DNA of 23,106 nucleotides from a virus: IMG/VR virus record IMGVR_UViG_3300023223_000093, positions 1 to 23,106 of that record, one strand, 5' to 3'. Under the pieces are notes generated by a model. It was not told where the DNA came from. It was given only the letters and a program-made list of their open reading frames with translations, and did not search any database. Of the stretch, positions 4,144-14,519 are shown piece after piece (position 1 is the stretch's first letter; the number at the start of each line of letters is the position of its first letter). Position numbers and translations under genes: made by a program.

Positions 4144-5594
4144 GAGGTTATTATCTCCAAGTCACCCTCCACAAAGGAAGCATCACTGAGCCCATTCAAA
4201 ACTGCAATCTCTTCACCCAGTTGGGAAGATCCATAGTATTGATAGGATAATAATCTAGCACTGGTTAGAGGAGTTGATATACTAACCAATCTGCCCAGTG
4301 TGACTTTGTTAGCCTGTGATAAACTATCCCCCTGAGCATCCGTAGAGAGACTCTCGGTATCAGATCCAGTAGTCCCCAAAGGAATTAGGGAAGAACTAAG
4401 CAGAGACCCGGGGGAGGAGCTAATCAGAGACCTCGGAGAAGAGCCACTAGTTAGAAAGGCGTTTAAGGCTTCAACCCTATCAATCCCCGATACTGATCTA
4501 TCCTCCTCAAACAACTTCTCCACAGTAATTCTTTGATTAGTTATTAGGGATTTAGACTTATTGGTTATGCCTACCAAGAATGAAGTTCTACCTGGATCAT
4601 TAGGAGGAAGGACTCCCCCCACCTCAGAGACTACAACCTTATTAGCTATAACCTTGTCATACTGGACCTCTAGAATATCAGCTACTTTCTGTTGATCTGG
4701 TATGGTATTAAAAGGTATGTTACTGGCAATGGTGTAGGCATGGGTTAAAGCATAAGCTTGAACTGATTCTTTTAATAGTTCTCGATTCTGGATCCTCTCT
4801 ACCCTACTAACGGTATTGGGCTGGATATCAACGTCATCATCTCCGAAATCAAAGAACTCCTGGATTACTCCAAAGGCTGCCTCAAAAGTAACAAACATTC
4901 CAGCGGTAGTATTGAATAGGTTCTCGATACTCTGAGCCAATGCAAGGGGTTGTCTAACCAGGCTTACTACATTATTTGCTAAATCTGATAATTGGTTGGA
5001 GAATGCGTTTAACTTATCAGCTCCAATAGTAAACAACTCAGTCTTCTCTTTAAAGGTATCTACTAAATCATTAACCTGGTCTATGCGATCAGAGATATTA
5101 TTAAAGAAGTTATCCTCAGACTCCTCAGCTAAGTCCTCCGTTAGAGATTCAGACGTCTCCTCCTCAGAATTAATAACCTGACTTAGATTGTTACCCTGGA
5201 TGGTAGGGACGCTCTGGGTTAGATCAACTTCAAAAGTAATACTAAACTCCCCTATTCCCAGGGAAGTGAAGTCCTCAATTAAAGTCCAAGAGGTAGCAAC
5301 TATATCATCCAATCTTCCAAATAAAGGATGGATCAGTACTCCTTTCTCCCCTGAATCCAGGATAGCTATAAACTGGTCTCTTTTTTCCTTATAGTCGTCT
5401 AACTCTGGGTCATTCGTTATCAATGCTTGTATCTTATAACTGTGCTGTTTAGTACCCAGGTTTTCTATAATTTGATTACTGCTATTGGGGAATTGATGTT
5501 TGACGTTCTTAATCCCACCCTCAGTATCAGCTTTATCTACAAGGAAGGGAACTCCTTTATAGGAAGCTAGTAGTGTCTGATCTAAAATGCTCAT
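4140..5594 (-). CDS. Mu gpN-like DNA circularisation/baseplate protein
   Basis: A 484-aa protein. Residues 1-125 match the DNA circularisation N-terminal domain: YKGVPFLVD, a His and Pro-containing GIKNVKHQFPNSS segment, then IHPLFGRLDDIVATSWT. The middle (160-300) is mostly helical. Residues 380-425 form a Ser-rich low-complexity linker, and the last 50 residues (ARLLSYQYYGSSQLGEEIAVLNGL) match the LysM-like C-terminal segment that tail proteins use near the hub. In Mu, gpN is a baseplate protein, and the name refers to an older proposed role in DNA circularisation. It follows the tape measure through an ATGA overlap. Confidence 0.88.
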   Translation of the reverse strand: MSILDQTLLASYKGVPFLVDKADTEGGIKNVKHQFPNSSNQIIENLGTKQHSYKIQALITNDPELDDYKEKRDQFIAILDSGEKGVLIHPLFGRLDDIVATSWTLIEDFTSLGIGEFSITFEVDLTQSVPTIQGNNLSQVINSEEETSESLTEDLAEESEDNFFNNISDRIDQVNDLVDTFKEKTELFTIGADKLNAFSNQLSDLANNVVSLVRQPLALAQSIENLFNTTAGMFVTFEAAFGVIQEFFDFGDDDVDIQPNTVSRVERIQNRELLKESVQAYALTHAYTIASNIPFNTIPDQQKVADILEVQYDKVIANKVVVSEVGGVLPPNDPGRTSFLVGITNKSKSLITNQRITVEKLFEEDRSVSGIDRVEALNAFLTSGSSPRSLISSSPGSLLSSSLIPLGTTGSDTESLSTDAQGDSLSQANKVTLGRLVSISTPLTSARLLSYQYYGSSQLGEEIAVLNGLSDASFVEGDLEIITS

Positions 5595-7405
5595 CCAGCT
5601 GTCCTCTCCATGTTAACTCCTACATTAAGGTTCGGTGTTCTAGCCACAGATTTAACAGAACTTATTACACCCTTGGGAGAGGATATATTTATATTCACGT
5701 CTGCCTGTGATCTAACCTCAATTAACTTTTTAAGTGGCTCCACCGGAGAAGGTTGATTAGCGGCCTTAAAGTTTTCAGGGATAGTGGGAACTCCGATGGG
5801 GGTCTTCTTATCAATCTGAGGATTAACCGTAACAGGTACTACGGGAGCAACTTTAATCTGGGGAGCTACATTAATTATAGGAGCTACATTAACCTTAGGA
5901 GCTACATCAATTATAGGAGCCACATTAACTTTGGGATTTATAGGAACTACCTTAACATTAGGGACTACGGGAGTTACGTTAGTAACCACTTTAACGTTGG
6001 GTACTACGGGAGTTACCTTAGCGTCTATGTTGATATTGGGATTTATGGTTATTACATTATCTGGTATCACTGGAGTAATTGTAATTGGCGGAGTCTTTTG
6101 AGATACATTCTTCAAGGCTTCTCTGGCCGCCTTCCGTTGCCGCTCCACGTTTATAACTCCACTAGCATCACCAGTAAAGGTCAATACCGTTCTAGCTGCC
6201 TCCTCCCCCAAGAATCTGCCAACTCCTACAAAGCCTGATTTTACTAGCCCCAACCCCTTAGTAATAATAGATATAGAATCCGCCATGGATTTAATAGAGT
6301 CGGCCAGCTTTTGAATGTCCCCTTCTTTTATCGATTGTACCCACTTGGCAAAATCGTTAGCAAGATTAGTGAATACTTTTTTCTCTTCCAGCTTTAGAAA
6401 GGTTTTAATCAGAACCTCATTGATTATTATACCTAACCCCCTAAGCTTAGCACCAAAGGTAGCCAGACGTATCTTAGCTTGTTCGGTGGCCACTTGAGTA
6501 TTACTAATTGAAATTGTCCACTCATCAACAAGCTTTCTACTGTTAATTAAAGTAACGCCCTGCTTAATGGCCTCCTGGCCAAACAACTTAGTAAGTTTAG
6601 AGGTGCTAAGATTTTTTCTTGCTAGATTTTCTAGGGCCTTGGATAATCCTACTATGGAAGGCTTGAACCTTTTATTACTTTGAGCTTCTAGTTTCAAGAA
6701 TACCGATTGTAATCCAGTGCCGGCTACTTCCCCTTTAATACCACCCTTGGCCAAGACCTGGATGGCAGCATTTAACTCTTCAAAAGATACCCCTGCTAAT
6801 CGAGCAGAAACAGCAGACTTTACAATAGCCACCCCAGTCTCGGAGACCTCGGAAGCTCCTACTTTAGCACCAGCAGCTAACACGTTGACAAACCGGCCAG
6901 CTTCATCAGCTCCAGCACCAAATTGGTTAAGGGATTGTATAACTATATCGGAAGCTTGAGCTAGATCTAGTCCGGTTGCATTCTTCAGTAGCAGAACTTG
7001 TTCTGTAACTTTAATTAAAGCCCCTTCGGTTTTCAGTAGTTCTGATTTACCCGAGGCCACTACCTTGAAGGAGGTAGCCACTTCCGCAGCAGAAATCTTA
7101 GATACCCGGGCTAATCTTAAGGACTCATCACTGAGAAACTTCAAATCCTTACCAGCTGCTCCGGTAATGGATGATAGGTCTGCAATAGCCTCTTCAAATT
7201 TAATACCTTCAGTAAAGAATTTCCTAATTCCAAAGAAGGCTATTGCAGCACCGGCCAACTGCTTGAACTTGGAGGTAGCTCCCCCCAAGCTCTTATCAAG
7301 TCCCTTAAATCCCTTACGCATTTTCTTAGTACTGGCAGCTACTTTCCTGGCTACATTAGTGAAAGCATCTTTAGCAATAACAACAAACGAAACTCTATTA
7401 GCCAT
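5591..7405 (-). CDS. Tail tape measure protein (TP901 family core)
   Basis: A 604-aa protein that sets tail length and is packed inside the tail tube before DNA ejection. Residues about 65-330 match the TP901 tape-measure core: LSSITGAAGKDLKFLSDESLRLAR, the ASDIVIQSLNQFGAGADEAG segment and GGIKGEVAGTGLQSVF near 221. A possible hydrophobic segment lies near 51-60. Residues about 439-535 are a Pro/Val/Asn repeat tract that includes five VAPxx[NDK]-type hexapeptides at 495-524. For a myovirus this is a short tape measure, so a tail of roughly 90 nm or less is inferred from about 0.15 nm per residue. The ATG lies inside the end of the frameshifted chaperone reading frame (8-base overlap). Confidence 0.9.
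   Translation of the reverse strand: MANRVSFVVIAKDAFTNVARKVAASTKKMRKGFKGLDKSLGGATSKFKQLAGAAIAFFGIRKFFTEGIKFEEAIADLSSITGAAGKDLKFLSDESLRLARVSKISAAEVATSFKVVASGKSELLKTEGALIKVTEQVLLLKNATGLDLAQASDIVIQSLNQFGAGADEAGRFVNVLAAGAKVGASEVSETGVAIVKSAVSARLAGVSFEELNAAIQVLAKGGIKGEVAGTGLQSVFLKLEAQSNKRFKPSIVGLSKALENLARKNLSTSKLTKLFGQEAIKQGVTLINSRKLVDEWTISISNTQVATEQAKIRLATFGAKLRGLGIIINEVLIKTFLKLEEKKVFTNLANDFAKWVQSIKEGDIQKLADSIKSMADSISIITKGLGLVKSGFVGVGRFLGEEAARTVLTFTGDASGVINVERQRKAAREALKNVSQKTPPITITPVIPDNVITINPNINIDAKVTPVVPNVKVVTNVTPVVPNVKVVPINPKVNVAPIIDVAPKVNVAPIINVAPQIKVAPVVPVTVNPQIDKKTPIGVPTIPENFKAANQPSPVEPLKKLIEVRSQADVNINISSPKGVISSVKSVARTPNLNVGVNMERTAG
5801..6091 (-). repeat. Tandem repeat tract inside the tape measure gene
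   Basis: Five tandem 18-bp units run from 5844 to 5933 (plus-strand unit about GGAGCTACATTAATTATA, diverged) and encode VAPxx[NDK] hexapeptides. Next to them, at about 5943-6020, is a longer imperfect repeat that encodes TPVVPNVKV twice. Together they code for residues about 439-535 of the tape measure. Such repeats can expand or contract in units of six residues. Confidence 0.85.
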
Positions 7406-8005
7406 TTGAGTGAGCCTTTATTATTTCTTGAGAATCCTGCATAAAGTCACAGAGTTCAGGGAGAGGCATGTCCAGGAGGTCGAAGTAGTTAACTCCGCCT
7501 CCATAGAATTTAGTTATCCAGAGTAACTCTGAGTTTAGTGAGCCCTCTCCTATTACAGAGAAGGAAGGATAAAATTTACCAGGAAGAATCCTGTAATACC
7601 GTAGACGTCTTTAAGACTAAGATCCTCAGCAAGTGGTTGGGTAAATCTAAATTCTCCATCCACTTTACCAAGTCCCCCCACTAGCATAGCCCTAACATGA
7701 AGAATCACTTTAGCTACGTCTATGTTGGGAGCAAGCTCGAGAGTCTGCATCATGGAGCTGGGGTCAATTTGCTTGCTGTCCTCATTGTCCTCAGCCCCAT
7801 CTTCCACAGTTTCCACAGTCTCCACAGTCTTCACAGAATCCTGGTTCTGTGCCCAGTTAACCGCCTTCATAACCTCACACTTTACTGGGGCTATGTCGGT
7901 AATATTGCGAGCAGTGGGTGGAGTAATAGAGATAAACTGAGCTGTCTCCATACCCCCTTTATCTTTATTCGCGTACTCAAAACCTTCTTGTAGTTTGTAT
8001 TCCAT
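7398..8005 (-). CDS. Frameshifted long form of the tail assembly chaperone
   Basis: Slipping back one base at the heptamer AAATTTT (7577-7571) joins the 145 codons upstream to a 57-codon open extension (7571-7398), giving a 202-aa product. The extension begins YPSFSVIGEGSLNSELLWI and contains KFYGGGVNYFDLLDMPL; a tryptophan-containing helix followed by LDMPLPELCDF is typical of the T-type (gpGT-like) domain. By analogy with lambda gpG/gpGT, the short form coats the tape measure while the extension recruits tube subunits. The extension has no start or ribosome site of its own and fills what would otherwise be a 150-base gap. Its stop lies 8 bases inside the tape-measure gene. Confidence 0.85.
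7543..7577 (-). promoter_or_regulatory. Programmed -1 ribosomal frameshift signal
   Basis: On the minus strand the zero-frame codons GTA AAT TTT contain the slippery heptamer A AAT TTT (7577-7571), which fits X XXY YYZ. Six bases later an 8-bp stem can form: CCTTCTCT (7564-7557) with GGAGAGGG (7550-7543) around a 6-base loop, including two G-U pairs. The zero-frame stop TAA (7555-7553) lies in the loop. Heptamer, spacer and hairpin all have the usual geometry, and the -1 frame is open exactly where needed. Confidence 0.85.
7553..8005 (-). CDS. Tail assembly chaperone, short form (Mu gp41-like position)
   Basis: A 150-aa protein, the product of normal termination at 7553. The N-terminus (EYKLQEGFEYANKDKGG) and the central ITPPTARNITDIAP pattern fit the G-type tail assembly chaperones encoded between tube and tape measure. 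An acidic linker at about 57-78 contains three tandem TVE triplets from a 9-bp DNA repeat (7802-7837). A second helical part includes AKVILHVRAMLVGGL and the LSLKDVYGITGFFL segment just before the frameshift site. The ATG is preceded by GAGG at suitable distance. These proteins are not expected in the mature virion. Confidence 0.88.
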   Translation of the reverse strand: MEYKLQEGFEYANKDKGGMETAQFISITPPTARNITDIAPVKCEVMKAVNWAQNQDSVKTVETVETVEDGAEDNEDSKQIDPSSMMQTLELAPNIDVAKVILHVRAMLVGGLGKVDGEFRFTQPLAEDLSLKDVYGITGFFLVNFILPSL

Positions 8006-8027
8006 GATGACCTCGCATTATAAAGTT

Positions 8028-8420
8028 TTAGATTGCAGGATTAGCTTTAAATTCAATCGGGATAGTAGTGTCAGCGCCTAAAGCCTTCTCAGGATCAGTC
8101 AGCAAAGCTGCTTTAGTGAAGGTTCGAGTGATTCTACCCTCCGGAGTTGACCCAGTAATCTGTACTACGTTATTATTTCGATTGGATTTAGCTACTTTAC
8201 TATTATCAATATTGTCAACCGTAGCATGGAGCTCAAACTTGACCATCGAGAAATTGCTTTCTACATTGTGAGAGTAGACCTGCTCAACAACTCCCCCTCC
8301 AATTGAAGCCGCTTTAATCTCCTGCTCCCCCTGGCCTTCGGTAAAGACCAGAGTATTGGGTACAATACCCCATATATCATTATTAACCGTTACTGTAGCA
8401 TCTGCTAATTGAGTAGCCAC
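8028..8420 (-). CDS. Tail tube protein (Mu gpM-like)
   Basis: A 130-aa protein whose size and pattern (NDIWGIVPNTLVFTEGQGEQEIKAAS, ending TTIPIEFKANP) match the tube proteins of Mu-type contractile tails, which stack as hexameric rings inside the sheath. It starts with GTG at 8420; the GGAGG in the last codons of the sheath gene serves as its ribosome site. It follows the sheath immediately (3-base gap) and precedes the chaperone, the standard order sheath-tube-chaperone-tape measure. Confidence 0.9.
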   Translation of the reverse strand: MATQLADATVTVNNDIWGIVPNTLVFTEGQGEQEIKAASIGGGVVEQVYSHNVESNFSMVKFELHATVDNIDNSKVAKSNRNNNVVQITGSTPEGRITRTFTKAALLTDPEKALGADTTIPIEFKANPAI

Positions 8421-8423
8421 TGA

Positions 8424-9968
8424 TTACGCCTCCGCTGAGAATGAGATTTTTTGGGTTACTAAGATGATTCTTAGTTGAGTGACAATAGGGGTGATCATCT
8501 GGACAGTAGCCTTGCCTAGCGCCAGGTCCAGAGTAACAACCAAGTTATCTTTGAAGAACTTAATTGCATCGTCTCCATCTTGTACCAATACAAAGCCAGG
8601 CCCAGCGAGGTCTTGATACAGTCTCTCAATGAAGGCTGCAATGGTTAAGTCATTAGCCTGATCTCGGCCTCTAACTACGCTACCCAGTGTAAGCCGAGAC
8701 TGAGCAAATCGAGACTTCAAGTTATTGAAGAAGTATTCTCGAGAGCCTGAAGCTGTATCCCGATAATTCAAGAACTTAAAGGTGAGATCTGGATTACCCG
8801 CAGTATCAGTCTTAAAGGTAGTTAATACCTGTCCTAGCACAGACTCGGTACCCGAGGTGTTATTGCCGATTATAGTACCACCCGCATCCTCCAGTTGACC
8901 GATCTCCGTAGGAGTCCAGCCTCGATTAGTTCCAATTAAAGGAAGATCAGGGAAAGGAGTATTAAAATAAGGTTTGCTTGCCAAGGCAGGACCCCCGAAA
9001 GAGTCAAGAGGACCGTTAGCGCTAAGAACAAATTGCCCAATGCTCGCATCTTCAGTCAGCCTTAGGGCTCTTATGGCCGCAAGCTGAGAGATTTTGACAG
9101 CAGGAATCTCTAGTTGAGCCGGCCCCGCAAAGTTGGTTTCGGACTCTAGCTTATCAACGACCTCCACCAAATTTTCACTATTAAGAGCTCCCAATCGTGT
9201 AAGATGATTGGCTAGAGTATCCGTCACAGAAACAAATCCTGCTCCATCCAAGACATCGTTATCTACATTAAATCGAGGATCAAGAAATCCTGTTAGCTCA
9301 GACACGATAGCGTAGGGCCATGCTACTCCTTGATAGCGACGATTACCCACCACATCAAAGACTCCAGTGAGGGTAGGATCAGTTGCTCCCGATGCCATAC
9401 CTGTCACAGCAGTAGTAATGCCGGCTACCGTACCCTCGATGGATAGTCCTAAGGTATTACCGAAGGTACCATCATGAACTGCTGTAACATCCACATCTCC
9501 TATTGTTACTATACTGGTAACGGGGAGTTGAGTGTCCAAGTCCATAGCAGCTTTAATGGCAGTAGCCACTGCAGCAGCGGTATCGGTATCAGCAACCTCG
9601 ACGGTGAACCGATGGTTAGTCTCTGAGGCGATATTGATTATCAGAGTACCGGCTTCAGTAGCGGTACCTGTAATAGCCAATTGACCTGAAGCATTAGTTC
9701 CTGAGGCATCGTCTAAACCAATGGCATCAAACTGCGACACTTTATTAACTTTACGAGCAGCCCGGATCATAGAGGCAAGCATGGAGTTCTCACCATACAG
9801 AGTATCCCAGGATTTATCATCCAGAATATTCTGAGTAAGAGCTCCAGATACAGCAGTCGCCGCTGCAGTTTGTTGTCCTACAAAAATAACTTTCTGTGGA
9901 GTATTACCTACTGCTGCAGAAGCATTAACAATGTTTACTGTAGTAAACGGGTTAGAAACTATGGACAT
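8424..9968 (-). CDS. Contractile tail sheath protein (Mu gpL-like)
   Basis: A 514-aa protein. The N-terminal part (NTPQKVIFVGQQTAAATAVSG), the central variable beta domain (about 95-195), NRRYQGVAWPYAIVSEL near 208 and the C-terminal region with NLKSRFAQSRLT and KISFSAEA fit the Mu gpL/sheath family. The conserved C-terminal domain forms the inner contacts with the tube, whereas the central insertion faces outward. The ATG overlaps the stop of the gp38-like gene (TAATG). This gene establishes that the particle is a myovirus. Confidence 0.92.
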   Translation of the reverse strand: MSIVSNPFTTVNIVNASAAVGNTPQKVIFVGQQTAAATAVSGALTQNILDDKSWDTLYGENSMLASMIRAARKVNKVSQFDAIGLDDASGTNASGQLAITGTATEAGTLIINIASETNHRFTVEVADTDTAAAVATAIKAAMDLDTQLPVTSIVTIGDVDVTAVHDGTFGNTLGLSIEGTVAGITTAVTGMASGATDPTLTGVFDVVGNRRYQGVAWPYAIVSELTGFLDPRFNVDNDVLDGAGFVSVTDTLANHLTRLGALNSENLVEVVDKLESETNFAGPAQLEIPAVKISQLAAIRALRLTEDASIGQFVLSANGPLDSFGGPALASKPYFNTPFPDLPLIGTNRGWTPTEIGQLEDAGGTIIGNNTSGTESVLGQVLTTFKTDTAGNPDLTFKFLNYRDTASGSREYFFNNLKSRFAQSRLTLGSVVRGRDQANDLTIAAFIERLYQDLAGPGFVLVQDGDDAIKFFKDNLVVTLDLALGKATVQMITPIVTQLRIILVTQKISFSAEA

Positions 9969-10192
9969 TAGTCTTCTCCTTTAGATGACTTTTTAGGTTT
10001 ATCCGAGGCCTTTTCCTTGGGAGAAGGTTTAGACTTGGATTCTTTAACTACCTCACAACAGCCATCGATCTTAGAATCTTTAAGTCGACGGCGCCAGTAC
10101 TCGGAGGTGGGCACTCCCTTCACATCAGGGATAGTAATAATATCTCCGGGGCTAGCAATATCCCCCAGAGGCTTGTTAACTTTTATTCTCAT
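9968..10192 (-). CDS. Mu gp38-like small protein (DUF2635)
   Basis: A 74-aa protein. The segment SEYWRRRLKDSKID (about 30-43) is the hallmark of DUF2635 proteins encoded directly before the sheath in Mu-like phages. The last 25 residues are Lys/Ser-rich and probably disordered. It overlaps the tail terminator-like gene by ATGA and the sheath start by one base. The molecular role is unknown; tail assembly is inferred from its fixed position. Confidence 0.8.
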   Translation of the reverse strand: MRIKVNKPLGDIASPGDIITIPDVKGVPTSEYWRRRLKDSKIDGCCEVVKESKSKPSPKEKASDKPKKSSKGED

Positions 10193-11286
10193 GGTAATGG
10201 TTCCTCGTCAAGATTGATTTCGGCAGTAAAAGTTTCGCTACCAGTAGTTTGATTCATGATTAAACTGATATCTCGGAAAGCAACGTCTACGTCATGGCCT
10301 ATGGTATCCTCAAAGGTAAGATCACTGGTTTGCTCAAAGCTATACTGGTGGATATAGAAAGCAGAGTTATAGCCTTGAAAACCATGGTTAGTAAAAATCA
10401 GTGCTTCCTGATTAGGTGTTGAAAGTCCAGACTCAAAACTATTGAACAGTATGGAACCACAGATACTGGGGAATAGATCCTCAGATTCATCACGAGCTTT
10501 CCTAGCAGATAGTTCATCAGCTGTAGGAATAAATGTGTAGATAGTAACCGGCTGGATTATCTGCTGTCGAAAGTTATCTCCTTGTTGTCCTCTCGTCTGA
10601 GAGTCTATGGAGTCGTTCTCAATGTTTCTACTCTTGGATGCTACAACATCTCCAAGAATTACGAACATCCAATTCTCTGTGGGGGGCTGAGTGGTATAAG
10701 CAGCTATTATTCTTTCTATACTCGTACCTCCAGAAATCCTTATCCCATTATTAACGCTAATGATTCCAGTAGCATCCTTAAGTCCAGATCCAGTCAGGGT
10801 ATAAGTAAAGCTGGTAGTAGTGGGGACTGTGATCACAGTCTGGAGTCCATTGTATCCCCGGAAGGCGGACTCACCATTTACCAAAACGGGAGATCCAGTA
10901 GCAACGGTAGGACCACTATCAACCATGATAAATGTGATAGTTCTACGGTTAGCTACTGTGATTATCTTGAAGGTACCATTGAACTCAGACTCTGTTGCTC
11001 CGGCTATCTCTATATTAATTAATCCATTAGTCACATCATGATCAGTTAGAGTAATCAGTTCCCCCACTATTCCAGATCGAGTAAGAGAGGTAATGTCTAT
11101 ATTGGACTGAGCTCCTTTAATGACGGACAGGTCTCCAATAACTAAGCCATGAGCAGAATCGGTTTCTACCAGAGCTTCGGTACCTGAAGGATTAGTCAAG
11201 CTAGTCACAGAAACTGAGTCACTAAAGCTATCAGTAAACAGTGGCAGTCTTGCTTGCAACAGCGATACAATTTCACTAGCTTTCAT
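10189..11286 (-). CDS. Tail terminator-like protein (Mu gp37 position) with inserted beta module
   Basis: A 365-aa protein. The N-terminal helix (KASEIVSLLQARLP) and the C-terminal half from about 185 (ERIIAAYTTQPPTENWMFVILGD, then a Gln-rich strand with QPVTIYTFIPT and a helix with ARDESEDLF) fit a tail terminator of the Mu gp37/DUF1834 type, which caps the tail and binds the neck. Between them, residues about 26-180 are extra beta sequence with AHGL, IEIAGATESEFNG and TTTSFTYTL patterns, related to a segment in baseplate J. The insert roughly doubles the protein and probably projects from the tail-neck junction. It overlaps the gp10-like gene by 11 bases and the gp38-like gene by ATGA. Confidence 0.75.
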   Translation of the reverse strand: MKASEIVSLLQARLPLFTDSFSDSVSVTSLTNPSGTEALVETDSAHGLVIGDLSVIKGAQSNIDITSLTRSGIVGELITLTDHDVTNGLINIEIAGATESEFNGTFKIITVANRRTITFIMVDSGPTVATGSPVLVNGESAFRGYNGLQTVITVPTTTSFTYTLTGSGLKDATGIISVNNGIRISGGTSIERIIAAYTTQPPTENWMFVILGDVVASKSRNIENDSIDSQTRGQQGDNFRQQIIQPVTIYTFIPTADELSARKARDESEDLFPSICGSILFNSFESGLSTPNQEALIFTNHGFQGYNSAFYIHQYSFEQTSDLTFEDTIGHDVDVAFRDISLIMNQTTGSETFTAEINLDEEPLP

Positions 11287-12135: not shown

Positions 12136-12795
12136 CTATGGAGCTACTATACTGTTGGGTATTGGGGGTTCTTCAGATTTAGTGGATCCTACAACTGTTA
12201 AGTCCAATCCACCAACAACATCGTACTCTGGGTCTTGCCCGTTGATTGGCGCATAGAATAACAAGTTTTCACTTTGTATTTTTGGTGGTGAAATTCCTGA
12301 TGCCAATGACTTTATCGAACCAGCTGCAAGGCCTATGCCGTAAATCGCGCAATGACCAATATCCCCATCCATTGGGTCTTCAGTTCCAGCCCCACCTGAC
12401 CCTGCACCAATTCTAACTGGTGCCGTTGTTGACGACATATTTCCAGTTGCTGGGGTAACTGCTTCTTCTATTCCATCACAGTAAACTCGAATATCTGTTC
12501 CATCATACACCCCTGCAATATGATGCCATGTTCCAACAACTAAAGTAGTTGTTCCTACGGCGATTTTAGTGCTGCCATTGAAGATGGCAAATTGACATTT
12601 ATCACCGCTATCAGTTGATAAGAGGTATTGAAAATCACCGCCTGCATCTGACCATTTAGCAAGAATCTTACCTTCGCTGGAAGAGGATTCCAATCTTATC
12701 CGTGCTGATAAAGTAACTTCATCTCCTGTAAGGTTTAGAGCTGACGGATTACCCGCATCTAAATGGTCGTTTGTGCCGTTAAAATTCCTAGCCAT
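12136..12795 (-). CDS. LamG / concanavalin A-like lectin domain protein
   Basis: A 219-aa protein made of one laminin-G-like jelly roll: FNGTNDHLDAG at the start, EVTLSARIRLES, GTWHHIAGVYDGTDIRVYCDG (in two parts, about 86-107) and DGDIGHCAIYGIGL near 144-157. The last 60 residues hold a second short strand set typical of such proteins. These domains bind glycans or other virion proteins. No catalytic residues are visible. Its place between a fibre-like gene and the head closure gene is unusual, because LamG proteins are more often coded beside tail fibres. A role as a neck- or head-attached adhesin is inference. Confidence 0.8.
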   Translation of the reverse strand: MARNFNGTNDHLDAGNPSALNLTGDEVTLSARIRLESSSSEGKILAKWSDAGGDFQYLLSTDSGDKCQFAIFNGSTKIAVGTTTLVVGTWHHIAGVYDGTDIRVYCDGIEEAVTPATGNMSSTTAPVRIGAGSGGAGTEDPMDGDIGHCAIYGIGLAAGSIKSLASGISPPKIQSENLLFYAPINGQDPEYDVVGGLDLTVVGSTKSEEPPIPNSIVAP

Positions 12796-12797
12796 GA

Positions 12798-14519
12798 TTA
12801 TTGCTCCAGCGATACGCGTAACACTTCAGCGTCATTAGTCATGGTATCACTACCACTTGCTGCAACACGCTGTACTCTAAGTCTAAACGCATCGCCTGTT
12901 GTCCAGCTATCCGCTTGCGCTTGAGTTAAAGTGATAGTAGTTCGAGTAACAATTCCTGAAGTGCCTGATGTGGTATCGGTTCCAGTTTGTTGAGCAGCAA
13001 AACTATCACTATCAATATCCGTCACACCCTGATCAATACGCTCAATCTCAATACCCCAGACAACATCGCCAGTTGTTGCAGTTTCAGCAACCCAATCAAT
13101 ATTCACTGAGACATCGCCGTCAGAGTAGTCTGTTGATATAACTCCGTGGAAGACTACAGATTCAGCTGTTGCGTCATCAAACGCTAGTATTGGGTGTGCG
13201 TTTCTTGAATTGGCAACAGCTGGATTGGAGCTTGGGAATGTCGCGTCATTAGCATCAAAGTCGCCAAGATAGCTTCCTTCACCCAGCGTTGTATAAACCA
13301 AAGGCGTTACAGACCCCTTAGCAGTCTCCCAATCACCACTTGTATTAGAACGGATAACCGATACTTCAACCTTCGTGATTACAGCATCATCAGTTTCTGG
13401 GAAGAAATCAACACCTGTGAAGTCCTCAACAGTAGCGACCGTACCAATACCACGAACAGTCAGCAGTGTTCCAACATGGGACTCCACCTCGTAGTAATTG
13501 TTATTATTCCTGGTGTCAGATATTTGAACGATATTGTCTTGAGCAAACGTTGCAGAACCATCAGTAACCACAGTGGGATTAGATGTTGAGGCCACACCAA
13601 CCACAAATGGCCCACCCGTAACCGTGTCAGTTGTAGCTGTACCTTCAATGGTAACAGCGACCCCGGAAGTAACACCAACGGCTGTAGTATAACTGGAATT
13701 CAGTCGAGCGTAAGGGGTGAGCCCAATGTGACCCATTACGTTATCTGCTGTAGAGTTCTCGTTCCTTTGAACCGCAAAACCTTTAATATCCGCTTTCGCA
13801 ACAAACACGGAAGGGTTTACTTGTTCACCTTTCAGTGTGAATGAACCAGTACCAACCGGGAACGTTCTAGAGAAATATGTTTCCCCCACTCTGAATGTTT
13901 GTGGGTTAGGTGGGGCAAGTTTGGTTAAGCCAACAGAGATATCAAATACTTCGTCGAATATTTTAAAACCTGTGTCGTCTGTGCCTATGTATATCTGGTT
14001 TCTGAACTGGCCGCTAGGCGGTACTGAAGCAAAATCGTTAGTGTTCTCTATTACTAAGAATTCAGTTGTGGGGATACTGGAAGAGAATATGCTTGGGTCT
14101 AGTACAAACTCAATGGGGTTAGCTATTGTGAATTCTTCGCTCGTGTCTGCGTCAACCGTAGTTACAAGGAATTGTTCAAGAGGAGGGGCTTTGGGTGGTA
14201 GTTCATTAAGAATCCCTACTGTTTCGGACACAGTATTGCCAGTCCCCATGAACTGTATACTGGTGGCGTTATTGAATGCCCCAACGCTTTCGCCAAAATC
14301 ACTGATTACTATATTAGTGCCAAGTTTCAACGAACCCGCAGGCACATTGATAGACTCGTCAAAAGTCCATTCTAAAGTACCGGGGTCAACAGTAGCCCCG
14401 CCAAAGACTAGCGCACCTGATGCATCAGCCTTGGGCACTTGTCCTTCTGTCAATGTGGTGAACGTAGGATCAACTCCGCCTCCACCAGCTCCGGGGCCTT
14501 TACCTTTATTAAGAGTCAT
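12798..14519 (-). CDS. Fibre-like virion surface protein
   Basis: A 573-aa protein, rich in Thr, Ser, Val, Asp and Gly and poor in Lys and Cys. It opens with a Gly-rich KGKGPGAGGGG segment, then LTEGQVPKADASGALVFGG, a pattern common at fibre N-termini. The middle holds a beta module around NIVQISDTRNNNNYYEVES. The last 135 residues (GDVVWGIEIERI, GDAFRLRVQR, SDTMTNDAEVLRVSLEQ) form a C-terminal beta domain I associate with phage structural and fibre proteins. A good ribosome site (AAGGGG) lies just after the stop of the 84-aa gene. Placement in the neck genes suggests a head or neck fibre, but this is not shown by the sequence. Confidence 0.65.
   Translation of the reverse strand: MTLNKGKGPGAGGGGVDPTFTTLTEGQVPKADASGALVFGGATVDPGTLEWTFDESINVPAGSLKLGTNIVISDFGESVGAFNNATSIQFMGTGNTVSETVGILNELPPKAPPLEQFLVTTVDADTSEEFTIANPIEFVLDPSIFSSSIPTTEFLVIENTNDFASVPPSGQFRNQIYIGTDDTGFKIFDEVFDISVGLTKLAPPNPQTFRVGETYFSRTFPVGTGSFTLKGEQVNPSVFVAKADIKGFAVQRNENSTADNVMGHIGLTPYARLNSSYTTAVGVTSGVAVTIEGTATTDTVTGGPFVVGVASTSNPTVVTDGSATFAQDNIVQISDTRNNNNYYEVESHVGTLLTVRGIGTVATVEDFTGVDFFPETDDAVITKVEVSVIRSNTSGDWETAKGSVTPLVYTTLGEGSYLGDFDANDATFPSSNPAVANSRNAHPILAFDDATAESVVFHGVISTDYSDGDVSVNIDWVAETATTGDVVWGIEIERIDQGVTDIDSDSFAAQQTGTDTTSGTSGIVTRTTITLTQAQADSWTTGDAFRLRVQRVAASGSDTMTNDAEVLRVSLEQ

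Follow-up and report, generated by a model that had tools for sequence, protein, structure and literature searches.

A predicted programmed −1 frameshift site with a conserved hairpin in a new family of phage tail assembly chaperone genes

In phage lambda, the short product of the tail assembly chaperone gene binds the tape measure protein, and the rare long product has an extension that binds the tube protein, perhaps recruiting it (PMC5009743). Tailed phages use −1, −2 or +1 shifts variously, that of Mu being −2 (PMC5009743); −1 is the majority direction and the −2 shift of Mu the exception (PMC4378225, PMC2628397, PMC5009743). Hairpins are reported to be rare at phage sites (PMC3091744, citing Xu et al. 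2004).

Reading the DNA of Mu, Shewanella phage MuM16-2, and Vibrio phage 1.136 revealed CGG GGG CGA together with an open −2/+1 frame. This and PMC5009743 agree with the −2 shift that had been ascribed to Mu in an initial interpretation of our locus (the sequence-only reading). Two other phages, both with the Mu-type order sheath, tube, chaperone, tape measure, N, and P, carry −1 sites in their DNA: Shigella phage SfV has an in-frame T_TTT_TTC and Bordetella phage PBb001 an in-frame T_TTT_TTG, each followed by an open −1 extension. Because these phages have open −1 frames in the same tail module, the −1 direction is no novelty for Mu-type tails. As −1 is also the published norm, the suggestion that a −1 heptamer in such a module would be a notable variant had to be dropped.

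The chaperone locus and its frameshift signal

The stretch of DNA analyzed here (the window) comprises 23,106 bases from a virus record, with the frameshift site on the minus strand. It encodes a terminase, a portal protein, a protease (PF04586), an HK97-type capsid protein (PF05065), and connectors, followed by the tail genes for sheath, probable tube, chaperone, tape measure, N-like, P-like, and baseplate J proteins, which is the tail order of Mu. The features relevant to the frameshift are as follows.

8424–9968, minus strand: tail sheath protein, 514 aa (phrog_165, E 3e-47)
8028–8420, minus strand: probable tail tube protein, 130 aa, next to the sheath gene and the upstream neighbor of the chaperone gene
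7553–8005, minus strand: tail assembly chaperone, frame-0 product, 150 aa, gpG-like, with an ATG start
7571–7577, minus strand (read 7577–7571): slippery heptamer A AAT TTT, in frame 0 and in the correct X_XXY_YYZ phase
7565–7570, minus strand: spacer ATCCTT, 6 nt
7543–7564, minus strand: putative stimulatory hairpin, 8-bp stem and 6-nt loop
7553–7555, minus strand: frame-0 stop codon TAA, within the hairpin loop
7398–7571, minus strand: −1 frame extension, T-like domain, 57 codons and a stop, with base 7571 predicted to be read twice
5591–7405, minus strand: tape measure protein, 604 aa (PF10145, E 7e-25), with its ATG at 7405 and its first 8 bases shared with the end of the extension

The chaperone gene is thus placed between the tube and tape measure genes, the tube gene being named by its position and conservation only: Pfam and PHROG searches with the probable tube protein gave no match, and tblastn matches to its gene occur at the same place in nearly all relatives. 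Pfam and PHROG searches with the chaperone were likewise without a match, and tblastn with the 202-aa fusion gave none among named phages. Its AlphaFold model is confident (pLDDT 89). A fold search with this model returned two significant matches, both uncharacterized or unnamed, with named chaperones at a non-significant E of 0.5–1.4, and a fold search against the PDB gave no significant match. Because there is no Pfam, PHROG or significant named fold match, the role as a chaperone is assigned from synteny and from the shared extension.

The 3′ end of the chaperone gene reads, in frame-0 codons, CTG GTA AAT TTT ATC CTT CCT TCT CTG TAA. The hairpin stem is formed by CCUUCUCU (7564–7557) paired with GGAGAGGG (7550–7543). 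From base 7571 the −1 frame is open to 7401 and stops at 7400–7398, 8 bases into the tape measure gene (ATG at 7405). The predicted fusion product has 145 + 57 = 202 aa, with LVNF/YPSF at the junction. Heptamer, 6-base spacer, 8-bp hairpin, 57 open codons, product length, and junction had all been given by the sequence-only reading and proved exact to the base, as did the position of the stop inside the tape measure gene.

Taken by itself, the window sequence supports a signal beyond chance only partly. The fold of the 58-nt segment is unremarkable (z = −0.56), and the −1 frame stays open in 4% of shuffles of the stretch; none of 20 shuffles gave an equally good hairpin at the allowed distance. 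When the relatives are included, the signal is clearly beyond chance.

Several further observations concern the neighborhood. Among the head-tail connector genes are those for a Laminin_G_3/ConA-like lectin domain protein (PF13385, E 3e-23; 12136–12795) and for a 573-aa protein without a Pfam match (12798–14519); both are possible candidates for capsid decoration proteins. The tape measure gene carries, in its C-terminal part, tandem repeats of 18–39 bases (5844–6021), which encode V-A-P/N-V rich repeats and could be a site of tail-length variation. Within the chaperone gene, a 9-base tandem repeat of about 3.8 copies (7803–7836) encodes TVETVETVED, which falls in a low-confidence stretch of the AlphaFold model (residues 60–74); its copy number may be variable.

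Conservation of the −1 frame in relatives

With the chaperone alone as query, no match was obtained against viral contigs. The sheath protein was used instead and retrieved 68 IMG/VR loci. The region was readable in 60 sequences including the window, which form 53 clusters at 85% identity (the window and 52 relatives). A scan of genome contigs returned only two sheath relatives, from two different phyla.

Each of the 53 non-redundant sequences has a −1 frame that continues past the chaperone stop, over 30–67 codons (median 52) and over at least 40 codons in 52 of them; the median for the +1 frame is 6.5 codons. Most of the −1 frames finish no more than about 15 bases from where the tape measure gene starts. 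An in-frame AAATTTT is found near the chaperone end in 37 of the 53 clusters, compared to 0.19 expected from the sheath and tape measure genes (6 occurrences in 49,976 control codons). The remaining clusters hold T_TTT/T_TTC at the same codon. Their sites are T_TTT_TTG/A, T_TTT_TTT, A_AAT_TTC, G_GTT_TTT, A_GTT_TTT, C_AAT_TTT, G_AAT_TTT, G_ACT_TTT, A_ACT_TTT, and T_GAT_TTT, of which some, such as G_GTT_TTT (L051), G_ACT_TTT (L015), and T_GAT_TTT (L007), lack canonical re-pairing in the P site. The copy in a Zixiibacteriota MAG has A AAT TTC and an extension that finishes at the tape measure start. In the 52-member chaperone alignment, the slippery phenylalanine (F145) is the sole invariant column. 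In E. coli, A_AA.U_UU.U falls into the efficient class H_HH.U_UU.Y, with U_UU.U one of the better tetramers (PMC4066793). A P-site half that varies, next to an A-site T_TTT/T_TTC that is lost in no relative, fits this ranking of slippery sites in E. coli.

The extensions align as one protein family with the motif FFEGGxxYxxLxxMPxxEL. An AlphaFold model of the extension alone shows a short helical domain (pLDDT 73). Over 14 disjoint pairs of sequences, the nucleotide differences past the frame-0 stop number 273, 176, and 467 at −1-frame codon positions 1, 2, and 3, so that the third position takes 51% of them (p = 4e-28). This distribution indicates that the extension evolves as coding sequence of the −1 frame, under selection at the protein level. 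An open frame that is merely a chance overlap, or a sequencing artifact of one metagenome contig, might have been considered on the basis of the shuffles, about one in 25 of which stay open; it is refuted by the comparison, as the frame and the slippery codon are kept throughout the 52 non-redundant relatives, the end point in nearly all of them, and the codon-position bias is strong, so we regard it as extremely improbable. The conservation of heptamer and −1 frame, on which the sequence-only reading had staked its proposal, held in these relatives.

The overlap of the −1 frame with the chaperone stop is also what would be seen for translationally coupled genes, and the extension might then be a small gene in its own right, reached by re-initiation or equipped with its own start. 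The first ATG in the extension of the window, however, is at codon index 34 of 57, inside the conserved part, so that separate initiation at an ATG could not yield that part. The open reading frame list of the window has no ATG, GTG or TTG start that would cover the −1 frame, and an ATG near the junction occurs in only 7 of the 53 sequences. What is conserved is a slippery codon with a downstream hairpin rather than a start with a ribosome binding site. An independent gene is on these grounds very improbable. As had been anticipated, gene callers miss the extension, no listed start covering the frame in the window; gene calling that is based on starts overlooks it in all these genomes.

Several relatives differ in other respects. 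The locus from a Zixiibacteriota bin (L071) has an additional ORF of 212 codons between the sheath and tube genes (6548–7186), possibly an inserted gene. In L060, sheath and tube gene are about 3.4 kb apart (7620–10983), unlike in the other relatives. In L023 (5939–8609), as well as in L025, about 2.5 kb ahead of the slippery site read open in the −1 frame, and the +1 frame stays open far downstream, perhaps as an effect of high-GC codon usage.

The hairpin and the proposed mechanism

Hairpins of −5 kcal/mol or better that start 4–9 nt past the heptamer were found at 39 of the 53 sites, 17 of them at exactly 6 nt; the spacing is 4–7 nt in 38 of these 39 sequences. With the same energy cut-off, six offset positions gave 10–20 of 53. 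The median hairpin energy is −9.4 kcal/mol at the site vs. −1.2 to −2.9 kcal/mol at the offsets, and the mean z of the site hairpins against dinucleotide shuffles is −1.9. There is no obvious hairpin in some relatives (L048, L060).

In a subgroup of 11 sequences, both sides have changed in 5 of 12 pairs (14 cells vs. 4.2 in shuffles, reached in 0 of 500), and an offset of one base makes the pairing collapse. A subgroup with CCATCC/GGATGG is paired, yet has no double changes. Stem sequences are entirely unlike among the subgroups (e.g., CCUUCUCU, GCCUCUGUG, and UACGUCUG). The occurrence of unrelated stem sequences at the same place therefore also favors selection on structure. We take the comparative data to mean that the hairpin is under selection as RNA, with its spacing kept. 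The stem conservation for which the sequence-only reading had called is borne out with regard to spacing, and compensatory pairs are clear in one subgroup.

Whether weak slippery sites are offset by strong hairpins was considered separately. Sites with only the tetramer have a median of −12.0 vs. −7.75 kcal/mol (p 0.01). Such a trade-off was not supported after correction for relatedness, since the sheath tree gives only 7 independent contrasts and the hairpin is mostly the same.

Transcriptional slippage usually requires longer homopolymer runs. Slippage by RNA polymerase, instead of a shift by the ribosome, could be suspected for a few relatives with runs of T6–T8 (L023, L039). The dominant AAATTTT has no run longer than 4, however, and both the hairpin kept 4–7 nt downstream and the conserved X_XXY_YYZ phase fit tandem slippage of tRNAs. 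We consider polymerase slippage highly improbable.

Programmed −1 ribosomal frameshifting in the chaperone gene, which would give a gpG/gpGT-type pair, is the explanation that we hold to be very likely; as the sequence-only reading had proposed, it would join chaperone and extension, and it is supported by the conserved site and −1 frame in the relatives. Judged by comparison across the family, the frameshift signal is almost certainly real, conserved, and functional. Most ribosomes would terminate at 7555–7553 and release the 150-aa chaperone. A minority would pause at the hairpin, where tRNA-Asn and tRNA-Phe on AAU UUU may slip in tandem one base back onto AAA UUU, and these ribosomes would read 57 further codons to give the 202-aa protein. 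Following the lambda model, the short form would coat the tape measure protein, and a few long copies might recruit tail tube subunits via the extension, upon which polymerization of the tube would start. We infer the slippage itself, its rate, and the roles of both products.

The conserved hairpin is the most interesting part of this chaperone family. It is an evenly balanced proposition that a large uncultured lineage, with an HK97-type head in the window and a Mu-type contractile tail, sets its chaperone ratio by an RNA hairpin. Compensatory changes would preserve this hairpin even as its sequence and the slippery motif too are replaced, so that T_TTT tetramer and hairpin together would be the real signal. 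If true, this would contrast with the published view of hairpins as rare at phage tail chaperone sites.

Comparison with known tail chaperone systems

The mechanism is a known one in phages and of a well-known kind; the chaperone family is new and unannotated. A classic case of recoding gains a well-supported chaperone family that is absent from Pfam and PHROGs. Its natural slippery-site variants with hairpins (A_AAT_TTT, A_AAT_TTC, T_TTT_TTR, G_GTT_TTT, G_ACT_TTT, and others) form a set for side-by-side comparison.

With lambda gpG/gpGT, the locus shares a chaperone gene between the genes for the major tail (tube) protein and the tape measure protein, a common N-terminus of both products, a −1 slip near the frame-0 stop, and an extension finishing at the tape measure gene. 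It differs from lambda in its A_AAT_TTT heptamer, its conserved hairpin, its contractile-tail module, and the lack of a Pfam or PHROG match. The contractile-tailed phage P2 also shifts by −1 in its chaperone gene (E/E+E′), but its site is TTTTTTG, without a hairpin (PMC3091744).

SfV (orf13 continued into the −1 extension) has the same order of sheath, tube, chaperone, tape measure, N, and P, the same −1 direction, and a homologous extension: the profile of our extensions matches that of SfV with E 2.8e-7 in hmmsearch (database size set to 100) and with a probability of 93% in hhalign. The slippery site is T_TTT_TTC in SfV as opposed to A_AAT_TTT here, and the chaperone parts have no detectable sequence relation. 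Mu gp41 and its extension correspond in the order of the tail module and the position of the overlap; the similarity of the extensions is weak and non-significant (E 0.012 at database size 100). Mu uses CGG GGG CGA with a −2 (or +1) frame as opposed to −1 here; the window has no site resembling CGG GGG CGA, and its +1/−2 frame closes 14 codons past the stop. Within the Mu-type tail module, the direction of the shift thus varies by lineage, being −1 here and in SfV and −2 in Mu.

A literature search for AAATTTT in phage tail frameshifting found none, the sole phage-related match being a hydrolase in a Wolbachia gene transfer agent. Compared to the known Mu-type tails, this family differs in its dominant heptamer and its conserved hairpin.
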